In this document: piece by piece, positions 34,087 through 47,066 of the stretch
How positions within the stretch are numbered: the stretch's first letter is position 1
Layout of the letters: the number at the start of each line of letters is the position of its first letter
Origin: Longitalea arenae
GTDB taxonomy: Bacteria; Bacteroidota; Bacteroidia; Chitinophagales; Chitinophagaceae
Reading direction: 5' to 3'
Length of the DNA: 64,000 nt
NCBI RefSeq assembly: GCF_016924755.1
Contig: NZ_JAFFJX010000013.1
Span: 62,001-126,000, forward strand
Made by a program: the position numbers and the translations under genes
The notes under the pieces: generated by a model
Databases searched by the model: none
What the model was told of the DNA's origin: nothing
What the model saw: only the letters and a program-made list of their open reading frames with translations

Positions 34087-36282
34087 ATGGAATCATTACG
34101 TTTTAAAGCAATTAACGACCTGACTGCCCAGTCGAACGGCCTGGATGTAGAAGGTTCAACCAAAATTACCGGCATCTTCGGTGAGAATGTGTTTACTTTA
34201 AAAACTGCACGTGAGTTTTTAAGTGATGAAGCGTACAAAAGTCTTAACGCCTCTATTAAAGGTGCTAAGAAAATTGACCGCGCTATGGCTAACCAGATCG
34301 CGGCCGGCCTTCGCCAATGGGCAGAAACAAAGGGTGTAACACACTATACACACTGGTTCCAACCACTGACAGGCACTACTGCAGAAAAACACGACTCATT
34401 CTTCACTATCAAAGGTGATGGCAGCGCTATTGAAACTTTCGACGGCGATGCGTTGATCCAGCAAGAGCCTGATGCTTCTTCTTTCCCCAGCGGTGGTATC
34501 CGTGCGACTTTCGAAGCCCGCGGTTATACTGCATGGGATCCTTCTTCTCCTGCTTTCATTATGGAGATCGGCCAGGGTAAAACACTGTGTATCCCTACCA
34601 TCTTCGTTTCTTATACCGGTGAAACACTCGACTATAAAGCACCTTTATTAAAATCACTGGAAGCTTTGAACAAAGCAGCCGTGGAAGTGTGCCATTATTT
34701 CGACAAGAATGTAACTAAAGTAAACGCTACCCTGGGTTGGGAGCAGGAGTACTTCGTTATCGACGAAGCATTCTTCAATGCCCGTCCTGACCTGGTACTG
34801 GGCGGCCGTACTGTATTCGGTCACTCACCTGCCAAAGGCCAACAGCTGGAAGACCACTACTTTGGTGCTATTCCTGACCGGATCTACGCTTTCATGCGCG
34901 ATTTCGAACAGGAGTCTTACAAACTGGGTATTCCTTTAAGAACCCGTCACAACGAGGTTGCGCCTGCACAGTTCGAGTGCGCTCCTATCTTCGAAGAAGT
35001 TAGCGTGGCTGTAGACCACAACACCCTGTTGATGGATGTTATGGACCGCGTTGCCCGCCGTCATAAATTACGTGCTTTATTGCATGAGAAACCATTCGCC
35101 GGCATCAATGGAAGTGGTAAACACAATAACTGGTCAATGGCTACCGATACCGGCATCAACCTGCTGGCTCCCGGTAAAACCCCCAAGACCAACCTGATGT
35201 TCCTGACCTTCTTCGTGAACACCATCAAAGCGGTATATGATTATTCTGAGATCCTGCGTGCGTCTATCGCATCTGCCGGCAACGATCACCGCCTGGGTGC
35301 CAACGAAGCGCCTCCTGCGATCATCTCTGTATTCATTGGCCAGTACCTGTACAAGGTATTGAACGATGTGAAAGAAAGAGTAGGTGGTAAATTCGATGAG
35401 CAGGATGAAGCCATCCTGAAATTAGACCTGCACAGAAGCATTCCTGAGCTGTTGCTCGATAACACTGACCGTAACCGTACTTCACCGTTCGCGTTCACCG
35501 GTAACAAATTCGAGTTCCGCGCTGTAGGTTCTACTGCAAACTGCGCCAACCCCATGACCACCCTGAACACGATCATGGCTGAAACGCTGAAGAAATTCAA
35601 AAAAGACGTAGACACCCTGATCGAAAAAGGCGAGAAAAAAGAGATCGCTATCATGCACGTGATTCGCGAGTATATCGTAGCCAGCGAAAAAGTATTGTTC
35701 GAAGGCGACGGTTACAGCGACGAATGGCACCAGGAAGCTGAAAAACGCGGCTTACCGAATGTACGCACTACGCCAAAAGCGCTGGATGCGATGGTAAGCG
35801 AAAAATCGAAACACCTGTTCGAAAGCAACAACGTGTTAACGCATGTAGAGCTGGAAGCCCGTCATGAGATCGAGCTGGAAAAATACATCAAGAAAGTACA
35901 AATCGAAGCCCGTGTAATGGGTGAGCTGGCTACCAGCCACATTTTACCGGCAGCTATCAAATATCAGAACGAGCTGATCACAAACATCAAAGGTTTGAAA
36001 GAGATCGGGCTGAGTGAAGAAAGCTATGCTAACCAGAAACAAATCCTTACCAAAGTTTCTGAGCATGTAAGCAAAATGTCTGAGCTGGTTGAAAAGATGA
36101 TCCAGGCCCGTAAAAAGGCGAATGCGATCGCTGATACCCGCGAGAAAGCCATTGCTTATTGCGATACTATTAAAGAAGCGTATTTTGATCAGATCCGTTA
36201 CCATGCCGATAAGCTGGAATTGCTCGTAGGCGATGAGTACTGGCTGTTACCAAAATACCGTGAGATGCTGTTCTTGCGCTAA
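34087..36282 (+). CDS. glnN: Glutamine synthetase type III
   Basis: ATP-dependent amidation of glutamate to glutamine, the main ammonia assimilation enzyme of many Bacteroidota. The 731-residue product from the ATG at 34087 (an earlier ATG at 34051 lies in the presumed promoter) matches the long GSIII class. The N-terminal beta-grasp-like segment is followed by the catalytic domain, with HNEVAPAQFECAPIFEEV, NGSGKHNNWSMATDTG and the Asn/Arg-containing DNTDRNRTSPFAFTGNKFEFR. The C-terminal helical extension includes EARHEIELEKYIKKVQIEAR. The codon choice is that of a highly expressed gene (few rare codons). Confidence 0.96.
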   Translation: MESLRFKAINDLTAQSNGLDVEGSTKITGIFGENVFTLKTAREFLSDEAYKSLNASIKGAKKIDRAMANQIAAGLRQWAETKGVTHYTHWFQPLTGTTAEKHDSFFTIKGDGSAIETFDGDALIQQEPDASSFPSGGIRATFEARGYTAWDPSSPAFIMEIGQGKTLCIPTIFVSYTGETLDYKAPLLKSLEALNKAAVEVCHYFDKNVTKVNATLGWEQEYFVIDEAFFNARPDLVLGGRTVFGHSPAKGQQLEDHYFGAIPDRIYAFMRDFEQESYKLGIPLRTRHNEVAPAQFECAPIFEEVSVAVDHNTLLMDVMDRVARRHKLRALLHEKPFAGINGSGKHNNWSMATDTGINLLAPGKTPKTNLMFLTFFVNTIKAVYDYSEILRASIASAGNDHRLGANEAPPAIISVFIGQYLYKVLNDVKERVGGKFDEQDEAILKLDLHRSIPELLLDNTDRNRTSPFAFTGNKFEFRAVGSTANCANPMTTLNTIMAETLKKFKKDVDTLIEKGEKKEIAIMHVIREYIVASEKVLFEGDGYSDEWHQEAEKRGLPNVRTTPKALDAMVSEKSKHLFESNNVLTHVELEARHEIELEKYIKKVQIEARVMGELATSHILPAAIKYQNELITNIKGLKEIGLSEESYANQKQILTKVSEHVSKMSELVEKMIQARKKANAIADTREKAIAYCDTIKEAYFDQIRYHADKLELLVGDEYWLLPKYREMLFLR

Positions 36283-38625: not shown

Positions 38626-38704
38626 ACCAAGGCAGGATCAAGGAAAAGAAAAATACCTGTCTGTTCGCACACTCATAACTTATTATACAAGAAGTGTATA
38701 TAAA

Positions 38705-38840
38705 CACCAATCCCGCCTGTTGGCGGGACTACTGTAAAAGTTTTCACTGCGGAATAATCCTTACTGTGATTTACTTCAAAGCAAAGGTAAAAAGCTTTAC
38801 TTAATTCAACAAGCACCTATCACATTTCTTGATCTATCTC
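38705..38840 (-). ncRNA. tracrRNA of the type II-C CRISPR system
   Basis: Identified from an anti-repeat at 38764-38777: read leftward, GAAGTAAATCACAG is complementary to the 5' part of the crRNA repeat (GCTGTGATTTACTTTC), with one base gap. Directly downstream comes AAGGATTATTCCG (38750-38762), a small stem typical of the nexus region in Bacteroidota II-C tracrRNAs. Next are GCAGTGAAAAC and a 7-bp hairpin TCCCGCC/GGCGGGA (38711-38728), followed by a moderately T-rich stretch that may terminate transcription. A TATTTTTG box at 38847-38854 (reverse strand) matches the TAnnTTTG promoter consensus and would start the RNA near 38840. Both ends are estimates. It is transcribed away from cas9. Confidence 0.85.
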
Positions 38841-38846
38841 AATAAT

Positions 38847-38854
38847 CAAAAATA
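38847..38854 (-). promoter_or_regulatory. Putative -7 box of the tracrRNA promoter
   Basis: TATTTTTG on the reverse strand matches TAnnTTTG, about 70 bases before the anti-repeat. No convincing -33 box was found at 19-22 bases distance, so this is tentative. Confidence 0.4.
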
Positions 38855-38979
38855 TTTTCGCGGATTTTGTAGATAATATTTAACCCAAACTGTTTTTATA
38901 TTAAAGAACGTTTATTGATACAGTTAAAAACAACTGATCCTACTGTTCTAAAGATAATACTTATTCAATTCAATCCGAA

Positions 38980-38992
38980 TTGTACTGTACAA
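38980..38992. promoter_or_regulatory. Inverted repeat TTGTAC-T-GTACAA upstream of cas9
   Basis: A perfect 6+1+6 dyad lies 52 bases before the cas9 ATG and 10 bases before the degenerate repeat at 39003. It could be an operator controlling cas9. Confidence 0.4.
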
Positions 38993-39002
38993 ATATTATC
39001 TA

Positions 39003-39025
39003 GCTGTGATTTACTTTTTTTATTC
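39003..39025 (+). repeat. Degenerate CRISPR repeat copy in the cas9 upstream region
   Basis: The 15 bases GCTGTGATTTACTTT are identical to the start of the crRNA-oriented repeat. They continue TTTTATTC, matching CATTTATTC of the repeat with a two-base change and one deletion. The copy ends 18 bases before the cas9 ATG. In a cas9 mRNA leader it would pair with the tracrRNA anti-repeat; see findings. Confidence 0.8.
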
Positions 39026-39043: not shown

Positions 39044-42000
39044 ATGCAAAAAATCCTTGGTTTAGACATTGGCACCAACAGCATTGGTTGGGCGCTTGTT
39101 AATAATGAATTCGGAAACAATGATAGTAAGATCCTTGGTATGGGTTGCCGCATTATTCCTATGGATGGGGAAATGCTTGGCAACTATGAAGCAGGCGTTT
39201 CTGTTTCCCAAACGGCTAACCGACGCCAGGCCCGCGGAGCCAGGCGGCTGAAAGACCGGTATAAACTGAGAAGAAAAAGGCTGATTGCCGTTTTAAAGGT
39301 CCTAGGATGGCTGCCGGACAACTTTGCACCAGGCCATGTACTACCCATATTACCAGAAAGACTGGCTGAAATGCACACACTATTTGGCACCACCCAAATA
39401 ACCCAGGACTGGCTGGTGTATTATTTACGCAAAAAAGCGTTAACCGAAAAAATAGAATTAGCAGAGTTAGCCAGGATATTACTGCACATGAACCAACGCC
39501 GTGGCTTCAAAAGCAACCGCAAAGCCAACAACGATGCTTCGGCAGAAAACAATAGTGAACAAGAAGATCAATTGCCATCCAGGGAGAACAAAATAGAAGT
39601 AGTTTCTATAACTGCCGTAAAAGATACTGGCGAAATAACCCGCGGGAAAAAAGTATTTGAGATCACTTTAGCAAATGGTATTAAAGGAACTATTAGCAGA
39701 GATACTCCGCCGGATTGGGAAGGAAAAGAAATGGAATTGGAGATCAGGACGATTAGAAGTAAAAAAGACCCGACGCCACGATACGAATTTGCCCTGCCAA
39801 ATAAAAGCGATTGGCAAAAAATGAAAGAAGCACTGCAAAAGGACATTTCTGCAGCAGGATTGCATATCGGCGAATACGTGCTTAATGAGATATTAAAGAA
39901 CAGGAACTACAGGGTCAGAGAAAGGATTGTCGACCGTTCCCTGTTCATTGCAGAGCTTATGGCTATTTGGGAAACACAACAACAATTCCATCCTGAGCTA
40001 TTGGCTCGGGATAAAAACAATGCGATAGCAGATGCGCTTTATGTTCACAATAAAGAAAAAAGGAAAGAAATCCAGGCGAATGACCTGTTACATGTGCTGC
40101 TTCACGATATCATTTATTATCAACGTCCGCTGAGATCAAAAGTAAGCTCTATTGGTGAGTGTCGTTTTGAAAAAAAATCTATCTGGCTGAAAGATGCAAA
40201 AGGCAATGACGTTCAACCTGCGTTAAAAGTTATTCCGGCCAGTGCTCCTCTTTTCCAGGAGTTCAGAATATGGAAAACCATTCACACGCTAAAAATTTTT
40301 GTAAAAGAAAAGCAAGTTAATGGCGAGCTGAAAACTGACGTTGATGAAACTTCGATTTATCTAACATCAGCCGTAAAAGAGTCCTTATTTTATTTTTTCG
40401 ACAACCGCGAGGAAGTTGAATTAAAAGATATTTTAAAATTTTTGAAGTTATCATCCGACACGCATTACATCAACTATCCGGACAACACCAGATTCAAGGG
40501 TAATCCAACAAAGTCTCAATTCAGAAAATTGTTCAACCGGTTCAAATTTGAAGCGGGCATTAACTTTATGCTGGACGCAGAAAAAATGAACAGCCTATGG
40601 CATCTGGTATATTCAATAGACGACAGCTCAGCCATTGAAAAAGCTTTACAGGGGAAGAGATGGCAATTCCCGGAAAACGTTGCTAAAGCTGTAGCCAATC
40701 TACCTGCGTACCTGTCCCAATATGGTGCTTATAGCAGCAAGGCGCTGAATAAAATGTTGCCTTTAATGCGATGTGGAAGACTATGGAGTCCAGCAGCCAT
40801 CGACAAAGATACACGCGCCAGAATTGAAAAGATAATAACCGGTGAATTCGATGAACATATTGATGACAGAACTAGGAGCCTGCTGACGCATTGTACCAGC
40901 CTTGATCAGTTTCAAGGGCTGCCGGAACACCTGGCTACTTATGTAGTTTATGGGAAACACAGTGAAAAGACAGGAGAACCGGTAGAAAATCCCGAGATGG
41001 TCAAAGGTTGGGAATACAAGGGGCCGGCCAACCCCATCGTAAAACAGATTGTTAATGAAACGATACAGGTTGTGAAAGCCATATGGAAGCATTATGGCAG
41101 ACCAGATGAAATAAGGATCGAGTTAGCAAGAGACCTAAAAAAAACGGCAGATGAAAGAAAGGAACTATCCGCTATAAATTTTAAAAACCAGGAAGATAAA
41201 CGCCGGATCAAAGCGATCCTCAGGGAGCTAAAGATAGGCGACCCTGAATCCCTGTCAGATATCGATAGAATGCGCATATTCGAAGAGAATGGTAACTACG
41301 CAGCACAGGCTAATTATTTAAAGTTCTTTAAAAAAGCATCAGAACCCACCCCTGCCGAGATCGAAAAATACAGGCTTTGGGTGGAGCAAAATTGTATTTC
41401 TCCCTATACTGGCAAACCTATTCAACTTTCGCGTCTATATACACGTGATTATGATGTAGATCACATAATACCGCGGTCAAGATACTACGATGATTCCATG
41501 GCTAATAAGGTAATTGTGGAAACCTGGGCCAATGCAGAAAAGGATAACCTCACTGCCATGCAATATATCCGTAAGGGAAGTGCAAAAGGGGAATTACTGT
41601 CTGCAGAACATTATTCAGCTTATGTTAACAAGATCTTCCGCCAGAAAAAACGTCGTCATTTGTTAAGCGATGAAATTCCCGAAGGTTTTATTCAACGACA
41701 ATTAAACGACACCAGATACATTACCAAAAAAGTGGCAGAGCTGCTGTCTCAGGTCGTTGAAAGCAAAAAAGTAAAAACTACCATTGGGCAAATAACCGAC
41801 GAGTTAAAACACAAATGGGGACTGAACGACATGATTAAACGTTTGCTGATTGAACGTTTTGAAAGGCTGGAAAAACTCACCGGCGAAAAAAAGGTTGAAT
41901 ATTATACAGATGAGGCCGGTAAACGCCGGCTACACCTGCATGGTTATGAAAAACGTATCGATCATCGCCACCATGCAATAGATGCGCTTGTTGTCGCCTG

Positions 42001-43246
42001 TACCCTAGATGAACATATTCAATATATAAATACACTCGAAGCACAAACAAAAGATGAAAACGAAAAATATAAATATCTAAAACTGCTTAAAAGCAAAAAG
42101 ACAAGAGATTTTAAGGAACCCTGGCATTATTTTATTCCTGCCGCCGAAGAAGCGTTGCAACAGATCATTGTTTCATTTAAAAACCGGCATCGGATATTGA
42201 ACAAAGGCGTGAATAAACACCTTAAATATGTGGAAAAAGATGGCCTATGGATCAAGGATTTCGTAACCCAAACACAAGGGGAACTATGGTCTGTAAGACA
42301 ACCATTGCATAAGGAAACGGTGTCAGGGAAACTGCAGTTTAGAAGATATAAATCAGGCAGCATTGGAGACGCTATAAAACAGCCGGAAAAAATTGCAGAC
42401 AGAAAAGTAAAAGCACATTTAGTATACCTCATACAGCAATTTGGACCCGATGAAAAAAAGATTAAAAAAGCGCTTAAAGAAAATCCGGCTTTTGACAGTA
42501 AAGGCAATCCCATTGATAAGATAACGATGTGGTACATGAAGGAATACTATGGCAACAGGGTGAATCTCGATGAAACGTTTACAGCTGAAAAAATAAAGGA
42601 AAAAATAGCGACCTACAATACGGAGAGTAAAAATGGCTTAAAAAACATTTTATTGACACATCTGGCCAAATGGAATAACGAACCTAAAGCCGCCTTTGCG
42701 GGAGAAGGCATGGAAGATCTTACCAAGACTCTTGGCAGGCCGATAACTAAAGTAACCATCTACGAAGATTCTAAAAGCAAATTTGAAATAAGAAAAGGCC
42801 AGTTCGTAGAAGCAGCCAAAGGCACCAATCTGTTTTTTGTCATCTATGAGAATCTACAGACAGGAGAAAGGCAATTTGAAACATTGAGACTGGATGAAGT
42901 AATCATTGCAAAAGCCAATGGCTGGCCGGTGGTAAAAGCTAAAGAGGGGTATAAGCATTTTACACTTTCACCAAATGATCTGGTGTATGTACCGGAAGAA
43001 GGCGAGAATGTAAAAATGATCAACTGGCAAACCGAAAAAGAAAAGATCTCAAAAAGAATTTACAAAGTAGTAAGCTTTACCGGACCTCAATGCTTCTTTG
43101 TTCCACATAACTATTCCAAAACTATCATAGAAAAAGTAGAATTAGGTTCCATGAATAAACAGGAAAAATCGCAGGACGAATTAATGATCAAAAAGTGCTG
43201 TATAAAATTGAAGGTTGATAGACTGGGGAATGTTTTGGAAATGTAA
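39044..43246 (+). CDS. cas9: CRISPR-associated endonuclease Cas9, type II-C
   Basis: RNA-guided DNA endonuclease that cuts both target strands with crRNA and tracrRNA. The 1400-residue product is long for type II-C but usual for Bacteroidota members. RuvC-I: LGLDIGTNSIGWAL with D8. The Arg-rich bridge helix lies at about residues 56-85 (NRRQARGARRLKDRYKLRRK). RuvC-II: IRIELARDLKKT with E693. HNH: YDVDHIIPRSRYYDDSMANK with D806, H807, N821 and N830. RuvC-III: RHHAIDALVVAC with H977 and D980. The C-terminal PAM-interacting region follows. All catalytic positions of SpCas9 have counterparts. Absence of csn2 and cas4 makes it II-C. The gene is visibly A-rich compared with housekeeping genes, consistent with transfer. 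cas1 follows 191 bases later. Confidence 0.98.
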   Translation: MQKILGLDIGTNSIGWALVNNEFGNNDSKILGMGCRIIPMDGEMLGNYEAGVSVSQTANRRQARGARRLKDRYKLRRKRLIAVLKVLGWLPDNFAPGHVLPILPERLAEMHTLFGTTQITQDWLVYYLRKKALTEKIELAELARILLHMNQRRGFKSNRKANNDASAENNSEQEDQLPSRENKIEVVSITAVKDTGEITRGKKVFEITLANGIKGTISRDTPPDWEGKEMELEIRTIRSKKDPTPRYEFALPNKSDWQKMKEALQKDISAAGLHIGEYVLNEILKNRNYRVRERIVDRSLFIAELMAIWETQQQFHPELLARDKNNAIADALYVHNKEKRKEIQANDLLHVLLHDIIYYQRPLRSKVSSIGECRFEKKSIWLKDAKGNDVQPALKVIPASAPLFQEFRIWKTIHTLKIFVKEKQVNGELKTDVDETSIYLTSAVKESLFYFFDNREEVELKDILKFLKLSSDTHYINYPDNTRFKGNPTKSQFRKLFNRFKFEAGINFMLDAEKMNSLWHLVYSIDDSSAIEKALQGKRWQFPENVAKAVANLPAYLSQYGAYSSKALNKMLPLMRCGRLWSPAAIDKDTRARIEKIITGEFDEHIDDRTRSLLTHCTSLDQFQGLPEHLATYVVYGKHSEKTGEPVENPEMVKGWEYKGPANPIVKQIVNETIQVVKAIWKHYGRPDEIRIELARDLKKTADERKELSAINFKNQEDKRRIKAILRELKIGDPESLSDIDRMRIFEENGNYAAQANYLKFFKKASEPTPAEIEKYRLWVEQNCISPYTGKPIQLSRLYTRDYDVDHIIPRSRYYDDSMANKVIVETWANAEKDNLTAMQYIRKGSAKGELLSAEHYSAYVNKIFRQKKRRHLLSDEIPEGFIQRQLNDTRYITKKVAELLSQVVESKKVKTTIGQITDELKHKWGLNDMIKRLLIERFERLEKLTGEKKVEYYTDEAGKRRLHLHGYEKRIDHRHHAIDALVVACTLDEHIQYINTLEAQTKDENEKYKYLKLLKSKKTRDFKEPWHYFIPAAEEALQQIIVSFKNRHRILNKGVNKHLKYVEKDGLWIKDFVTQTQGELWSVRQPLHKETVSGKLQFRRYKSGSIGDAIKQPEKIADRKVKAHLVYLIQQFGPDEKKIKKALKENPAFDSKGNPIDKITMWYMKEYYGNRVNLDETFTAEKIKEKIATYNTESKNGLKNILLTHLAKWNNEPKAAFAGEGMEDLTKTLGRPITKVTIYEDSKSKFEIRKGQFVEAAKGTNLFFVIYENLQTGERQFETLRLDEVIIAKANGWPVVKAKEGYKHFTLSPNDLVYVPEEGENVKMINWQTEKEKISKRIYKVVSFTGPQCFFVPHNYSKTIIEKVELGSMNKQEKSQDELMIKKCCIKLKVDRLGNVLEM

Positions 43247-43437: not shown

Positions 43438-44720
<1,283 letters not shown>

Positions 44721-44820: not shown

Positions 44821-47066
44821 GCTGTCGCTGATCTAAAGTACCGAATAAATGAAAGTAAATCACAGCTAGTAGCAGATGCCGAGAAATCCGCCTTCTGCTG
44901 TCGCTGATCTAAAGTACCGAATAAATGAAAGTAAATCACAGCTAAGAGGTAATAAATCTTACAATGCATGGGGCTGTCGCTGATCTAAAGTACCGAATAA
45001 ATGAAAGTAAATCACAGCTACATCACAGCACTGGCTTATATCGTTAAGCTGTCGCTGATCTAAAGTACCGAATAAATGAAAGTAAATCACAGCTACCTCG
45101 GCGCCAATATCCGTGACGAACGGGCTGTCGCTGATCTAAAGTACCGAATAAATGAAAGTAAATCACAGCGGCCGATTTACAAAGGATTGTCCGAATGAGC
45201 TGTCGCTGATCTAAAGTACCGAATAAATGAAAGTAAATCACAGCCGGCAACTGACGACCTTAACCGACACATGCGCTGTCGCTGATCTAAAGTACCGAAT
45301 AAATGAAAGTAAATCACAGCTATATTTTTTTATTGGATTAAAAATCTTTTTGCTGTCGCTGATCTAAAGTACCGAATAAATGAAAGTAAATCACAGCGAT
45401 TCACTGAAGAAAGACGGCTTGCCCTTCGCTGTCGCTGATCTAAAGTACCGAATAAATGAAAGTAAATCACAGCAATAGTCCTTAAATTCAGCCTTTAGGG
45501 TATGCTGTCGCTGATCTAAAGTACCGAATAAATGAAAGTAAATCACAGCTAAACGCTTCCTGCAAAACGAAGCCCGGTATGCTGTCGCTGATCTAAAGTA
45601 CCGAATAAATGAAAGTAAATCACAGCAAGCAGCGGCATATATTAACGCTAGAAATAGCTGTCGCTGATCTAAAGTACCGAATAAATGAAAGTAAATCACA
45701 GCAGCCCACTAGGGATACGGAATAAAATTGGGCTGTCGCTGATCTAAAGTACCGAATAAATGAAAGTAAATCACAGCCGCTATTTTGTGGCCTGAGAAAT
45801 TCTTATAGCTGTCGCTGATCTAAAGTACCGAATAAATGAAAGTAAATCACAGCCTTACTATATTGCAGTTGCAAAGTACCCAAGGCTGTCGCTGATCTAA
45901 AGTACCGAATAAATGAAAGTAAATCACAGCGCAAAAATTGATGGTGTTGAAATAGTTGTGGCTGTCGCTGATCTAAAGTACCGAATAAATGAAAGTAAAT
46001 CACAGCATAGACTTCATTCTGTCTATAATCTCCATAGCTGTCGCTGATCTAAAGTACCGAATAAATGAAAGTAAATCACAGCTGTGGGTGATGTTGTAAC
46101 GGCTGAAGTATAGCTGTCGCTGATCTAAAGTACCGAATAAATGAAAGTAAATCACAGCGGCGTACATAATAGCAGCTATATGGGCAAGCTGTCGCTGATC
46201 TAAAGTACCGAATAAATGAAAGTAAATCACAGCTTCGACCGGCATTGTATTGTTGATCGGGTTCGCTGTCGCTGATCTAAAGTACCGAATAAATGAAAGT
46301 AAATCACAGCCGCATGGCATTGCCGAATTCCTTATCGACTGCTGTCGCTGATCTAAAGTACCGAATAAATGAAAGTAAATCACAGCGCTGAAGGATGAAG
46401 ACGCCCGGGAAGATACGCTGTCGCTGATCTAAAGTACCGAATAAATGAAAGTAAATCACAGCAACATATGGTTTTTACAGGTCTGGGAAGGCTGTCGCTG
46501 ATCTAAAGTACCGAATAAATGAAAGTAAATCACAGCACATTCCAAACTGAACCATCCGTGGATTGTGCTGTCGCTGATCTAAAGTACCGAATAAATGAAA
46601 GTAAATCACAGCATAAGTGTCAGAAAATACTTTCTCCGCCTCGCTGTCGCTGATCTAAAGTACCGAATAAATGAAAGTAAATCACAGCTGGTGAGCGATT
46701 GACTTTCAACGCTGGGTCGCTGTCGCTGATCTAAAGTACCGAATAAATGAAAGTAAATCACAGCGGAGCAATTGTTAACTAATTTAGGTTACGGCTGTCG
46801 CTGATCTAAAGTACCGAATAAATGAAAGTAAATCACAGCATTGCCAGGTAGTGCCGTCTTCAAATGCGAGCTGTCGCTGATCTAAATTACCGAATAAATG
46901 AAAGTAAATCACAGCGCGTTGGCAATCTAAGAATGTTCACGTTATGCTGTCGCTGATCTAAAGTACCGAATAAATGAAAGTAAATCACAGCTAAAATTAA
47001 ATTGATAGGTAATATAAGGTTGCTGTCGCTGATCTAAAGTACCGAATAAAGAAAGTAAATCACAGC
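44821..47066 (-). CRISPR. CRISPR array, 30 repeats and 29 spacers
   Basis: The repeat is 46 bases. In crRNA orientation it reads GCTGTGATTTACTTTCATTT then ATTCGGTACTTTAGATCAGC then GACAGC, with 5-base inverted ends (GCTGT/ACAGC). Counting by eye gives 30 copies; spacers are 28-31 bases, mostly 30. Repeats look identical except near the cas-distal end: the copy at 46870 has one G to T change (forward strand) and the last, at 47022, lacks one base. The crRNA strand (leftward) is inferred from complementarity to the tracrRNA anti-repeat. Apparent ORFs across the array are artefacts of the repeats. Confidence 0.98.

Follow-up and report, generated by a model that had tools for sequence, protein, structure and literature searches.

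A crRNA-like guide encoded in the leader of cas9 probably directs the Cas9 of Longitalea arenae to bind, and not to cut, the DNA upstream of its own gene, repressing cas9; the reading comes from sequence comparison. The window, that is, the whole stretch of L. arenae DNA analysed, is 64,000 nt long (contig NZ_JAFFJX010000013.1, positions 62,001-126,000, assembly GCF_016924755.1). It holds a type II-C CRISPR-Cas locus with cas9, cas1, cas2, a tracrRNA and a CRISPR array. The genes follow one another in the order cas9-cas1-cas2, and the array comes after them. Among the open reading frames listed between positions 36000 and 48000, neither csn2 nor cas4 was found beside cas9-cas1-cas2, and no extra gene lies between cas2 and the array. 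The signature TAAGGAT is present with the anti-repeat of the tracrRNA. The sole Rfam match, to cow-rumen-3, was below threshold (E 0.36) and was taken as chance. The features of the locus are collected in Table 1.

Table 1. Positions of the assigned and candidate features of the II-C locus, numbered from the first nucleotide of the window.
Feature	Position	Strand	Basis and remarks
tracrRNA	38695..38777 (approximate ends)	-	Assigned from sequence; anti-repeat 38763-38776, hairpin 38712-38727
Candidate tracrRNA -7 box, TACCTTTG	38782..38789	-	TAnnTTTG type; just before the anti-repeat
Candidate cas9 promoter	38829..38860	+	TTG 38829-38831, 21 nt, TATTTTCG 38853-38860
Putative target	38864..38881	-	Protospacer 38870-38881 (12 nt); PAM-side flank CAAAAT 38864-38869
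Putative seed (PAM-proximal guide end), AAATATTATCTA	38991..39002	+	12-nt exact inverted match to 38870-38881
Repeat-like element	39003..39025	+	First 15 nt are the repeat start; predicted to pair with the tracrRNA
cas9	39044..43246	+	1400 aa; TIGR01865, E 2.1e-140; ATG at 39044
cas1	43438..44334	+	TIGR03639 (type II Cas1), E 2.5e-89
cas2	44286..44720	+	TIGR01573, E 8.2e-21
CRISPR array	44821..47066	-	30 repeats; crRNA sense is the - strand

The initial annotation of this DNA had pointed to a degenerate CRISPR repeat 18 bp before the cas9 start, opening with 15 bases identical to the start of the repeat, and both parts of this description hold. The element begins 41 nt and ends 18 nt 5' of the cas9 ATG, and it is the one repeat-like element on the + strand in the 900 nt 5' of cas9, lying 3' of the putative seed. 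Its first part, GCTGTGATTTACTTT (39003-39017), agrees at every base with the opening 15 nt of the repeat read in the crRNA sense, and over 23 nt the element shares 96% identity with the variant terminal repeat (47044-47066). In the 64-kb window, the 13-mer TGTGATTTACTTT has a single + strand copy, which is the element, against 30 copies on the - strand, in the array; a chance origin of the element is therefore unlikely. Its predicted duplex with the tracrRNA reaches -20.2 kcal/mol, compared with -20.4 kcal/mol for the array repeat, and the best of 200 shuffles of this pairing gave -14.5 kcal/mol. The element might still be a functionless remnant, either a decayed repeat or a second tracrRNA anti-repeat, and it is true that its - strand reads like an anti-repeat and that the tracrRNA is close by. 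This is scarcely credible, however, as the TAAGGAT signature is absent on both sides of the element, and three species retain the element, with changes that match in each.

The spacer of a type II crRNA stands 5' of the repeat, and its final 10-12 nt form the seed. The 12 nt that abut the repeat-like element without a gap have an exact inverted copy 174 nt before the cas9 ATG. This match was not remarked on in the initial annotation, which described the repeat copy. Exact copies of the seed number two in a 17-kb slice around the locus, and the 10-nt seed combined with the flank pattern NNRAAT has a single occurrence in the 7.28-Mb genome, which is the target upstream of cas9. A 12-nt match by itself is not striking in such an AT-rich stretch: 12 of 1150 junctions attain one in the window, and in a close relative (L031) the odds of its match are likewise modest, at up to 32 of 1150. 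A single locus is thus not decisive, and it is the comparison between species and loci that decides. The earlier suggestion that the bases before the repeat copy act as a self-guide is well supported, at the level of sequence, by the PAM-proximal seed match in the cas9 upstream region, by the co-change of seed and target and by recurrence in other lineages.

Two close Cas9 orthologs were present in the searched data, those of Longitalea luteola (L031, 91%) and Niastella yeongjuensis (L032, 83%); the next-closest Cas9 stands at 49%. Both species carry the element 41 nt before cas9, as in the window, and an inverted seed copy 119-130 nt upstream. The seeds themselves differ (AAATATTATCTA in the window, AATAGTACTA in L. 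luteola and AATATTACTA in N. yeongjuensis). Each seed matches its own target over 12, 10 and 10 nt, respectively, compared with 3-5 nt across species, and the flanks of the targets are CAAAAT, TAAAAT and CAAAAT in the same order. Judged by these alignments, the target has changed together with the seed across the three close species. The repeat copy has changed as well. Its base 2 is C, T or G, and the opposite base of the tracrRNA is G, A or C; in N. yeongjuensis, base 4 is A and the tracrRNA has T. The best predicted partner of each repeat copy is the tracrRNA of its own species. Failure of the element to be conserved where the anti-repeat has changed had been named beforehand as an outcome that would speak against a regulatory role, and the element was found to co-vary with the anti-repeat.

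In N. yeongjuensis, the tracrRNA lies on the opposite strand compared with its relatives, yet guide and target have held their positions; a transcript common to guide and tracrRNA is thus not required. The same observation bears on the idea that the guide acts on the tracrRNA promoter and not on cas9. In the window and in L. luteola, approximately 90-110 nt do separate the target from the anti-repeat, and the target is upstream with respect to the tracrRNA, but guide and target persist in N. yeongjuensis where the tracrRNA is on the other strand, and the candidate -7 box of the tracrRNA adjoins the anti-repeat, away from the target; this idea is hardly to be entertained. An array with a matching repeat was not found in the N. 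yeongjuensis genome (G009) with the two patterns tried, and the genome keeps cas9, the tracrRNA, guide and target.

The strength of the pairing also raises the reading that the element serves as an antisense site only. The tracrRNA would pair with the leader, RNase III would cut the duplex, and the stability or translation of the cas9 mRNA would drop, with the seed being irrelevant; pairing and RNase III cutting of this kind had been put forward in the initial annotation, beside a self-guide, as a possible feedback loop on Cas9. Such a site would agree with a pairing as strong as that of the array repeat, with the tracking of the anti-repeat in three species and with the closeness of the element end to the ATG. 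It leaves the seed-target match, the co-change and the flank unexplained, and in 6 of the 10 guide loci described below the guide lies on the strand opposite cas9. We regard the antisense site as improbable on its own; an antisense effect may act alongside the self-guide.

The recurrence of such guides was surveyed in 100 Bacteroidota II-C cas9 loci together with L031, L032 and the window (103 in all), a non-random sample picked by similarity to the window Cas9. Two loci were left out before counting (L116, in which no start was found, and L117, with 69 nt upstream), which left 101 whose upstream region was usable. In these (61 + 40 loci), as much as 900 nt before cas9 was scanned for repeat-like words other than the tracrRNA anti-repeat. 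A guide whose seed is matched exactly over 10-14 nt ending at the junction was found in 10/101 loci. Four of these guides lie on the cas9 strand upstream of the ATG (window, L031, L032 and L174), and six lie on the opposite strand (L095, L098, L100, L106, L109 and L139). The seed is present exactly twice in a 10-17 kb slice around every one of the ten, and a 10-nt match is attained by 1.6% of 18,300 random junctions. The predicted pairing of guide and tracrRNA exceeds all 200 shuffles in eight of the ten loci, the exceptions being L109 and L139. The remaining repeat-like words in the scan, which had up to 3 mismatches and were not labelled tracr, showed no match of at least 10 nt; several of them are array repeats (L175) or tracrRNA variants (L177, L179). 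A 13-nt match at a repeat-like word in L156 was not counted, its copies being same-strand parts of a longer repeated segment.

The guide loci share a feature of layout. The tracrRNA signature lies more than 290 nt from cas9 in all ten, and none of the 86 loci with the signature within 240 nt of cas9 has a guide. Three more loci with an apparently long tracrRNA gap (L119, L141 and L176) have no guide. In L119 and L141, the gap was judged to result from a cas9 start called too far downstream; in L176, the hit at -735 is a second, weak one, and the tracrRNA is at -67. Two further usable loci, L179 and L180, showed no tracrRNA signature at the cut-off used. On a quick tree of 99 Cas9 proteins, the guide label requires 8 changes, 7 of them forced by starred branches, and 17/500 label shuffles gave as few as 8. 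The locus of a 72% ortholog of the L174 Cas9 has its tracrRNA near cas9 and, as judged by eye, no guide. Self-guides may have been gained or lost repeatedly across Bacteroidota II-C in two arrangements, a claim weighed jointly with the reading of the cas9 mRNA given further below.

Several loci have features of their own. In the cas9 leader of L174, target and guide have a tRNA-like sequence with an odd anticodon (2702-2773) between them, and cleavage at the 3' end of this sequence could release the guide. In L139, a small open reading frame, helix-turn-helix-like by eye, lies approximately 190 nt before cas9 and overlaps the cas9 start. Hairpins, some with T-runs, occur just 3' of the repeat-like part of the guide in L095, L098, L100 and L106, and some divergent guides may thus end as separate small RNAs that do not run into the tracrRNA. 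In the six divergent loci, those with the guide opposite cas9, guide and tracrRNA share a strand. In L095, L106 and L139, the predicted folds pair the repeat-like part of the guide with a downstream anti-repeat on one strand, and on these models the guides could be single RNAs like tracr-L of Streptococcus pyogenes.

The flanks of the targets offer a further line of evidence. NNRAAT stands on the PAM side of 9/10 self-targets, the exception being L100 with TGAAGC, against a background of 1.4-2.7% in these regions. Since the pattern was drawn up with the targets already in view, an independent test of the flank matters. In the array of L106, two spacers match a microvirus, one over 29/29 nt with the flank ATAGAT and the other over 27/29 nt with the flank GGAAAT. 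The self-target of L106 is flanked by AAAAAT and thus reads NNAAAT, beside NNAGAT and NNAAAT in the phage; ATAGAT fits NNARAT and not NNRAAT. The matched phage is Apis mellifera associated microvirus 59, and the match suggests that it, or a relative, has a Bacteroidota host. Fp2Cas9, a characterised Bacteroidota II-C enzyme, is described as having the PAM NNAAAG (PMC10309648), later narrowed to SNAAAG in the available text of another report (PMC12609912). On sequence grounds, CAAAAT is a candidate for the PAM of the window Cas9. The spacers of the window array gave weak, chance-like matches only, both against phages and against plasmids, as did the array of the 91% relative against phages. Of 76 spacers (29 + 47), eight were represented by their 20-nt ends in a scan of IMG/VR; seven of these ends had no match, and the contig found with the remaining one was rejected, with 21/30 nt in agreement. 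No usable protospacer came from the arrays of L098, L100, L109 and L139 or from a downstream stretch of L174; the L109 array gave one weak hit.

The geometry of the pairs is constant. All ten are inverted, and along the strand of the guide the target precedes it by 119-181 nt, an arrangement that may reflect how such guides arise. The same geometry is what a long-range RNA hairpin or the two halves of a protein operator would show, with the repeat being incidental, and a transcript spanning both copies could fold. It speaks against both that one half abuts a repeat-like element in 10/10 loci. The seeds share no sequence across lineages, unlike an operator, and neither the NNRAAT flank nor the microvirus flanks of L106 would play a part in a hairpin. 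This alternative is quite improbable in our view.

Candidate promoter boxes were allowed at most one mismatch in total. In the window, TATTTTCG has one mismatch to TAnnTTTG, and the candidate cas9 promoter is based on this consensus match; it is not clear in L031 and L032. Nine nucleotides separate TATTTTCG from the target. Candidate boxes stand beside the target in 5/10 loci (window, L098, L106, L109 and L139), and none was found beside it in L031, L032, L174, L095 and L100. In L106, L109 and L139, the target lies between candidate -33 and -7 boxes, in L139 within a promoter-like stretch upstream of the small open reading frame that precedes cas9. In L098 and the window, the target lies just after a candidate -7 box. 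In CRISPR interference, elongation is blocked when the guide pairs with the non-template strand, and targets within promoters are effective in both orientations. Pairing would be with the non-template strand of cas9 for the leader guides and with the template strand for the divergent ones, which fits but is no test.

A second, weak box, TAGCTGTG, with TTG 18 nt upstream, overlaps the repeat-like element itself. If this box is the cas9 promoter, the cas9 leader would be without the guide. The overlap would also suit the alternative in which the element is a piece of promoter, or else one of the isolated repeat-like words that precede genes in the genus, with the seed match a coincidence. The word TGTGATTTACTTTC, mostly inside TTGTGATTTACTTTCAA (the start of a II-C repeat), has 20 isolated copies outside arrays in 6/10 genomes of the genus (G005, G004, G009, G007, G008 and G000); a reversed-pattern control gave 0. 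Four of the 20 are in G005, in which Cas9 was not found. Often a copy is closely followed by a start codon or a terminator-like hairpin. Thirteen of the 20 were examined (L207-L211, L213, L215, L216, L218, L220, L221, L223 and L225), and at three junction offsets they showed no seed match of at least 8 nt in the range from 700 nt upstream to 300 nt downstream. They were rejected as further guides (0/13 with a seed match). The presence of TTGTGATTTACTTTCAA-like words in a genome such as G005, and their frequent position just upstream of start codons, would suit an isolated word, but the CAA end is missing from the cas9 copy, which co-varies with the anti-repeat, and the absence of a seed match in the 13 words sets them apart from it. 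This alternative, with its two versions taken together, is highly improbable.

The self-guide would operate as follows. The natural crRNA-like guide in the cas9 leader would consist of the seed and the repeat-like element (Table 1). Transcription from upstream of the seed would yield a leader RNA. The tracrRNA, transcribed from the opposite strand, would pair with the repeat-like part of this RNA, and RNase III would cut the duplex to give a guide bound to Cas9 and tracrRNA. Only 12 PAM-proximal nucleotides match, so Cas9 would be expected to bind the protospacer without cutting; matches of 10-14 nt, the range of the ten loci, would permit the former and not the latter. Bound Cas9 would then block transcription of cas9 and of the guide itself. 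Pairing of leader and tracrRNA would also expose the cas9 mRNA to RNase III, a possible second layer of control. Since the window carries its guide on the + strand and its tracrRNA on the - strand, the guide would be an RNA separate from the tracrRNA, with the cas9 leader as its precursor. The chances are balanced that in this clade the cas9 mRNA doubles as the message for Cas9 and as the precursor of a cas9-silencing guide, with repeated gain or loss across II-C. If it does, each cas9 transcript can yield a repressor guide that needs free Cas9 and free tracrRNA, and the loop would sense Cas9-tracrRNA that is neither occupied by crRNAs nor blocked by inhibitors. If such guides work, they extend the logic of tracr-L to II-C in another gene arrangement, allow PAMs to be predicted for Cas9 proteins without known phage targets and provide a direct handle on why bacteria limit Cas9. 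The ten natural sets of seed, target and flank are offered for testing.

There are common features of the predicted self-guide and known regulatory systems. CreR and mini-array crRNA-like regulators, mainly of types I and V-A, were reportedly described by Liu in 2023 and Shmakov in 2023. The guide resembles them in having a stand-alone degenerate repeat and a spacer that partly matches a cas promoter (predicted here); those regulators serve other effectors and usually have two repeats, whereas here the effector is Cas9 and one repeat stands 3' of the seed. In the II-C system of Campylobacter jejuni, noncanonical crRNAs also arise when an mRNA segment pairs with the tracrRNA and becomes a guide; the source describes guides from many cellular RNAs with no known role (PMC8224270), in contrast to a cas9 leader with a co-changing target. 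The Francisella novicida II-B scaRNA is likewise a separate RNA of the cas9 locus (predicted here for the guide) that pairs with the tracrRNA and has a short match, and its binding without cutting is described as repressing other host genes (PMC8616872). Unlike it, the 10-nt seed with NNRAAT occurs in its own genome only upstream of cas9. The Neisseria meningitidis scaRNA also belongs to a II-C locus and is a small RNA with a link to Cas9, but it is reported to act post-transcriptionally on the efeUOB 5' UTR and not on a cas9 promoter (PMC13431127).

A further close parallel is tracr-L of the S. pyogenes II-A system (Workman et al. 2021), described as a natural single-guide RNA formed by a 5'-extended tracrRNA, whose 11-nt seed matches the cas promoter next to a PAM and lets Cas9 bind there and repress its own operon; an 11-nt match is reported to be enough there, also with crRNA and tracr-S (PMC11417352, PMC8616872). 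As far as the available text of a 2021 review goes, no other subtype has been found to have tracr-L (PMC8616872). Structured RNAs at CRISPR loci were surveyed in 2022; that study puts the II-C tracrRNA of Bacteroidetes, as a rule, no more than 100 bases from cas9, and the available part of it makes no mention of such a guide (PMC9067536). Open-access literature, covered by titles and the starts of abstracts and with few subscription papers, gave no recognised account of self-guides of Bacteroidota II-C Cas9. The likeness to tracr-L lies in the 12-nt match beside CAAAAT at the predicted cas9 promoter of the window and in the predicted pairing of the repeat-like part with the anti-repeat. The difference is that tracr-L is one RNA, whereas in the window the guide and the tracrRNA lie on opposite strands and the guide stands in the cas9 leader; L095, L106 and L139 come closer to tracr-L, with guide and tracrRNA on one strand and folds that pair them. 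The logic of tracr-L, scaRNA and CreR is known, and what appears to be new is a self-guide in II-C, placed within the leader of cas9.
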